Positions 9,049 to 9,138 of a DNA stretch of 24,738 nt are shown piece by piece. Location of the stretch: IMG/VR virus record IMGVR_UViG_3300021964_000503, positions 1 to 24,738 of that record; one strand, given 5' to 3'. The translations under genes were made by a program, and so were the position numbers. The notes under the pieces were generated by a model. That model was not told the DNA's origin, did not search any database, and saw nothing but the letters and a program-made list of their open reading frames with translations. The DNA is from a virus. The number at the start of each line of letters is the position of its first letter. Positions within the stretch are counted from its first letter, which is position 1.

Positions 9049-9092
9049 ACATAAACTTTTCTGTCAACTTACATAAAGTTTTCTGTCAGTTG
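9049..9092 (+). repeat. Tandem 22-bp direct repeats, probable integrase arm sites
   Basis: Copies at 9049-9070 and 9071-9092 are adjacent and match at 18 of 22 positions, including ACATAAA and TTTTCTGTCA. The second copy runs into the tRNA-derived core. Inverted heptamers GTCAACT (9063-9069) and AGTTGAC (9088-9094) overlap them. Short direct repeats next to the crossover core are typical arm-type binding sites of tyrosine integrases. That role is inferred from position. Confidence 0.55.
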
Positions 9093-9138
9093 ACTCTTAA
9101 TCAATTGGTTCGGGGTTCGAGTCCCCGGCCCGGTACCA
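9089..9138 (+). other. attP: attP core: 3' part of a tRNA-Lys(CTT) gene
   Basis: This stretch folds as the last two thirds of a tRNA. It has an anticodon stem GTTGA/TCAAT around the loop CTCTTAA, giving anticodon CTT at 9096-9098. A 5-base variable region (TGGTT) follows. The T stem is CGGGG/CCCCG around TTCGAGT (9111-9127). The acceptor strand GCCCGGT, discriminator A and encoded CCA follow (9128-9138). The matching 5' acceptor strand ACCGGGC and a D arm are absent upstream, so this is not a complete tRNA gene. A tRNA 3' piece directly before an integrase is the usual attP arrangement, where integration restores the host tRNA. The crossover segment would lie within this core. Confidence 0.85.

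Follow-up and report, generated by a model that had tools for sequence, protein, structure and literature searches.

Complementary halves of an Opitutales tRNA-Lys(CTT) gene in the attP sites of a syntenic phage lineage

We analyzed a virus record of 24,738 bases (IMG/VR IMGVR_UViG_3300021964_000503; this whole stretch is called the window below). Positions 9087–9138 (+ strand) are a phage attP core of the ordinary kind, a 3′ fragment of the anticodon class, identical to positions 25–76 (52 bases) of a bacterial tRNA-Lys(CTT) gene. In the reading that we favor (probability about 0.93), this core is the attP that would exchange strands with the tRNA-Lys(CTT) gene of Opitutales in the loop CTCTTAA, rebuilding the tRNA beside the integrase gene (int). 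Sequence shows the match to the tRNA, the tRNA genes of the hosts, a conserved integrase, synteny in relatives and limits of identity at the anticodon loop; from these we infer that recombination takes place, where exactly the strands are cut and what follows for expression. The notable part is that both complementary halves of one tRNA gene occur as attP cores within a single syntenic phage lineage. No description of such a lineage was found in the open-access literature, which is weak evidence of novelty.

The segment 9089–9138 corresponds to tRNA positions 27–76 and reads GTTGA-CTCTTAA-TCAAT-TGGTT-CGGGG-TTCGAGT-CCCCG-GCCCGGT-A-CCA. Folded on paper, it comprises the anticodon arm (GTTGA CTCTTAA TCAAT, anticodon CTT), the variable loop, the T arm (CGGGG TTCGAGT CCCCG), the acceptor strand GCCCGGT, the discriminator A73 and CCA. 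The 5′ part of the tRNA is missing, because neither ARAGORN nor Rfam detects a complete tRNA in the window. The coordinates of this piece, running from the anticodon to CCA before the integrase and lacking its 5′ part, agree with those given in an earlier note on this DNA. That note also called the core unusually complete, which cannot be upheld, since cores from the anticodon to CCA are common (PMC4383910, PMC10865867). Mycobacteriophage cores span 30–45 bp and typically contain the 3′ half (PMC10865867); among 3919 tRNA-gene islands in Islander, 2083 are anticodon-centered, with a 3′ fragment in 3760 of all islands and a 5′ fragment in 159 (PMC4383910). The exact 50-mer is present in 13 other viral contigs, with the core invariant and the flanks diverging on both sides. 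A homologous integrase lies beside it in 11 of the 13 viral stretches fetched, and the remaining two end just past the core. Its occurrence beside int is not due to chance: the 50-mer is exact in these 13 contigs and in seven bacterial tRNA genes. A separate feature of the window and its close relatives is TGATTAGGAG (9030–9039), which is nearly the reverse complement (9/10) of the core segment CTCTTAATCA (9094–9103).

The earlier note had proposed that the core predicts a host tRNA-Lys(CTT) gene as attB and could so reveal the host, and had suggested a search for genomes with an identical tRNA 3′ end. Searched against 84,980 GTDB species genomes, the 50-mer matched exactly in seven, all Opitutales/Verrucomicrobiota (Opitutales bacterium AH-709-J17; Opitutia bacteria UBA3151, IN921, IN42 and SP85; Verrucomicrobia AG-908-P09 and TMED44), and in 7/7 it lies within a complete 76-nt tRNA-Lys(CTT). 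The other six genomes fall in the order-level group of AH-709-J17. The host gene reads GCCGGGC-TA-GCTC-AATTGGTA-GAGC-A-GTTGA-CTCTTAA-TCAAT..., and the attP is identical to it in all seven genomes from position 25, through the proposed exchange point, to the 3′ end at position 76. The acceptor pair that had been predicted, ACCGGGC/GCCCGGT, was wrong at position 1: the host strand is GCCGGGC, with G1 opposite U72 as its first pair. Marine Opitutales (Verrucomicrobiota) are thus the likely hosts of the window phage on the evidence of tRNA identity; that they are marine is our reading of the isolate names rather than a computed result. Fifty bases in this way assign a family of marine temperate phages, uncultured and lacking a close annotated relative by integrase, to marine Opitutales.

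The window record is classed as linear and is probably a genome fragment. Its open reading frames, compared with Pfam and PHROG, encode a tail protein, a 1199-aa protein, the integrase, an SSB-like protein, a DUF3799 (exonuclease VIII-like) protein, a Holliday junction resolvase, a DnaB helicase, a C5 DNA methylase and a terminase-like protein. The 1199-aa gene (5290–8889, +) lies upstream of attP, and a Pfam search assigned its product to no family. The relatives checked by tblastn likewise have their attP between the 1199-aa gene and int. Gene-by-gene mapping showed a conserved order in relatives: tail genes, 1199-aa gene, attP, int, small gene, SSB, exonuclease, resolvase and helicase. By terminase, the nearest annotated phage record is C75C1 (OQ984151; 30.5% identity over 92%), which is recorded without a host. 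This likeness does not extend to the integrase: the window integrase matches neither C75C1 nor any other annotated phage record.

The integrase (9203–10162, +; 319 aa) is a tyrosine integrase (Pfam Phage_integrase PF00589, 2.2e-9; PHROG phage integrase) with catalytic residues R186, K214, H272, R275, H299 and Y309. The R-K-H-R-H-Y set is invariant across 81 aligned integrases, truncated rows aside. The window therefore has next to its core the tyrosine recombinase with six catalytic residues that marks the tRNA-gene attP class. The CCA of the core ends at 9138 and int starts at 9203, a spacing of 64 bp. This leader (9139–9202, +) holds nested inverted repeats ending at the ATG; their sequence varies between clades while the pairing is largely kept, with outer pairs changed on both sides in 3/5, and two relatives (L189 and L195) have almost no leader. 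Upstream, a terminator-like intrinsic stem (8930–8959, +; 12 pairs, T tail), one of three such sites found against 0.4 expected, closes the 1199-aa gene, which makes a separate promoter for int probable. A candidate is TTGACG-18-TGTAAT (8984–9013, +), with 10/12 consensus matches; a stricter, simple promoter scan did not call it. Many relatives of both attP types, though not all, have a TTGAC-type −35 upstream of the core. The sequence ACATAAA[C/G]TTTTCTGTCA occurs twice in direct orientation (9049–9066 and 9071–9088, +; 22-bp spacing), abutting the core; these repeats are possibly arm-type sites or an operator. Clades other than that of the window carry a different element in place of these repeats (9049–9088).

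Relatives were collected by an integrase search (24 loci) and by a search with the integrase alignment (80 loci). Among those with the same gene order, two attP forms occur, holding either the 3′ part or the 5′ part of a tRNA-Lys(CTT). Most close relatives hold the 3′ part. A second set, with integrases of ~48–62% identity, has the 5′ part instead, GCCGGCGTAGCTCAGTTGGTAGAGCAG[G/A]AGACTCTTAATC, at the same position and pointing the same way. In this set the 5′ half starts exactly at G1 upstream of int (L173, L180, L182–L184, L186 and L188, and the further syntenic loci L190–L192, L194, L200 and L203); the form is clear in L173, L180, L182, L184, L186 and L200, for example, and the window does not have it. 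Four other relatives (L185, L189, L195 and L196) carry GAGACTCTTAATCTTTTGGTCGTGGGTTCGAATCCCTCCGCCGGTACCA, the 3′ part of apparently the same tRNA as the 5′ set. Joining the half of the 5′ set to GAGACTCTTAATCTTTTGGTCGTGGGTTCGAATCCCTCCGCCGGTACCA yields a tRNA with paired acceptor strands GCCGGCG/CGCCGGT. This joined tRNA-Lys(CTT) is exact in 2/372 genomes of the host order, G034 (GGAGA stem) and G259 (GAAGA), the stems of which match the two phage variants of the 5′ half; four more of the 372 genomes contain it with 1–2 mismatches. A whole tRNA gene predicted by joining halves from different phages was thus met in Opitutales chromosomes. A search with the 5′ half alone in a phylum-wide sample had not found a host of the 5′ type, and joined halves with an order-level sample succeeded.

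In two relatives of the window, L164 and L165, the 3′ parts belong to other tRNA-Lys(CTT) sequences, consistent with a core that follows the host's gene; a search of 384 genomes from the class gave no host for the core of L032/L164. An ARAGORN call in another relative (L008) was rejected as spurious on inspection, because GCCCGGT finds no pairing partner in its 5′ strand. A distant integrase, L214, has a 5′ half of tRNA-Leu(TAA) within ~130 bases before its int at 3701. A large sister clade of integrases (L217–L233) has no recognizable tRNA piece upstream of int; the attB of that clade is probably not a tRNA gene. An unrelated viral contig (L124:1080–1112) holds the 5′ half of another tRNA-Lys(CTT) and has no integrase of the window type.

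The two forms together place the exchange point. In the 3′ form, identity to the host gene begins at positions 22–32 and without exception stops exactly at 76; in the 5′ form it runs from position 1, again without exception, to 40–49 (limits taken from attPs with a known host gene, which leaves out L164 and L165). The stretch common to all attPs is 32–40, CTCTTAATC, the 7-nt anticodon loop plus two bases. Since the limits overlap only there, strand exchange is placed in the anticodon loop; the 7-bp overlap region, deduced as the intersection of the identity limits of the two types, would be CTCTTAA (window 9094–9100, +), with cut positions predicted to lie within it. The phage's own arms form a weak dyad: A is commonest immediately to the left of the loop, TC always comes directly to its right, and G is commonest seven bases out. 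In L201, L202 and L210 the arms are in register (GCAGTAGA...TCTTTTGGG), and the middle seven bases are CAATCAA or CAACCAA, not CTCTTAA. Such a pattern would be expected of a clade with a different target, given the 7-mer as overlap. The tRNA half in these contigs is decayed (L201:3744, L202:3744, L210:3831). From complementary tRNA halves in sister phages, the exchange loop can be located and an attB gene predicted by sequence only.

Under the favored reading, the integrase (9203–10162) would exchange strands between the core and the tRNA-Lys(CTT) of marine Opitutales in CTCTTAA. The host 5′ part (promoter and positions 1–31) would join the phage 3′ part to give an intact tRNA-Lys(CTT) at the int-side junction, and the host's own 3′ part would be displaced to the far end of the prophage. 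The resulting order would be host promoter, rebuilt tRNA and, 64 bp downstream, int; the candidate int promoter of the free phage (8984–9013) would move to the other prophage end, parted from int. With the 5′ form, the rebuilt tRNA would instead stand at the far end, behind phage DNA. Several 5′-form loci have a promoter-like TTGAC site with its −10 ending 39–86 bases upstream of G1, and the rebuilt tRNA could therefore depend on a phage promoter, the activity of which is putative.

No homologue of the integrase (E ≤ 1e-10) was present in the 372 genomes of the host order, so no prophage junctions could be read, and no viral contig has a full tRNA-Lys(CTT) next to an integrase of the window type. 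Because no integrated copy was found in these genomes or viral contigs, integration by the window phage is something that we infer, and prophages ending in the core, for which the earlier note had suggested looking, did not turn up in these collections. In the Opitutales genome G093, the 3′ part of a tRNA-Lys(CTT), from A31 through CCA, is duplicated ~1.2 kb downstream of the intact gene. The element between gene and duplicate (contig C72, 4808–6085; L255) has one open frame of 318 codons on the other strand and no integrase. A duplication of this shape is the mark left when an element inserts at the anticodon loop; the element in G093 is not the window phage.

Three other explanations were weighed. 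The fragment might be what decay has left of a once complete phage tRNA gene, now without its 5′ half and with no role in integration; tRNA genes are frequent in phages, and ARAGORN reports a pseudo-tRNA in the relative L008. Decay does not explain why, in many contigs, the left limits fall only within or at the edge of the anticodon arm and the fragment stops exactly at CCA, why identity to host genes is 50/50 while the flanks diverge, why the place beside int is fixed, or why a sister clade has exactly the complementary half, and we consider this explanation very unlikely. The 5′-half pieces of the relatives might also be host DNA at prophage–chromosome junctions rather than attP, as an integrated element of the 5′ type would have the host 5′ half directly before int. 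Four of these contigs (L040, L041, L111 and L139), however, carry a homologue of the 1199-aa gene and the genes preceding it upstream in the same order, and the arrangement is common to different contigs, which makes the junction explanation highly improbable.

There is scarcely any chance that the phage practices tRNA-dependent lysogeny, disrupting the host tRNA and supplying its own tRNA-Lys. A tRNA-Lys target combined with a tyrosine integrase does recall the mycobacteriophages for which this lifestyle was described (PMC10865867), but that lifestyle depends on a core of ~10 bp from which the tRNA is not rebuilt, and on a tRNA gene in the phage. The window core is 50–52 bp, reaches CCA and would rebuild the tRNA, and no tRNA gene is present in the window, itself a partial genome. 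These actinobacteriophages thus resemble the present family in their tyrosine integrase and host tRNA-Lys, with related phages there differing in whether the tRNA is rebuilt; they differ from it in that cores here are 40–55 bp and rebuild the tRNA, and the window is without a tRNA gene.

The integration reading instead places the window core in the anticodon-centered class of 3′ fragments (Islander, PMC4383910; Williams 2002, cited in PMC8371274), which it resembles in holding the 3′ tRNA part in attP, in the predicted rebuilding of the gene, in the deduced exchange at the anticodon stem-loop and in the adjacent int. It differs in its new host group (marine Opitutales) and phage group, and no lysogen has been seen. 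The 5′ half in the sister clades of the window, with a rebuilt tRNA that would be transcribed from the integrase-side promoter, recalls archaeal pTN3-like integrases, which use the 5′ half of a tRNA gene (PMC8371274). There, attP lies inside int, which is split on integration; here the phages are bacterial, attP lies outside an unsplit int (the window core ends 64 bp before its start), and the close relatives of the window use the 3′ half of the same gene. An arrangement in which the rebuilt tRNA could depend on a promoter of the element is known for the archaeal pTN3-like elements and has been described as seldom met in bacteria (PMC8371274), and we found nothing on bacterial 5′-half attPs in the open-access literature beyond the cited cases.

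On a tree of 65 integrases, the 3′/5′ state changes at least three times, once for the distant tRNA-Leu case L214. Without L214, two changes remain, both on starred branches by our reading of the tree: L189 (3′ form) joins the large 5′ clade, and L173, L180 and L182 stand apart from that clade. Deep branches are weakly supported, so the changes may have run in either direction. We are evenly divided on whether the syntenic lineage switched halves at least twice with the same exchange loop and int orientation, such that lysogeny in 5′-half lineages would make the host tRNA-Lys(CTT) depend on a promoter of the phage and int on that of the host tRNA. The states met in the family (3′ half, 5′ half, altered overlap, attP lost) form a natural series on how integrases change or lose their target. 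In the last of these states (integrases at L197:1144–2019, L204:3968–4873, L208:2527–3411, L205–L207 and L211), the region from the terminator to int has no room for attP, and the integrases have 8–15 residues before the core-binding region, against 41–106 elsewhere, with R-K-H-R-H-Y kept. This looks like repeated joint loss of attP and the arm-binding part. The exception is L193 (3298–4326), which lost attP and has a longer N terminus, the only attP-less case that keeps the arm region.
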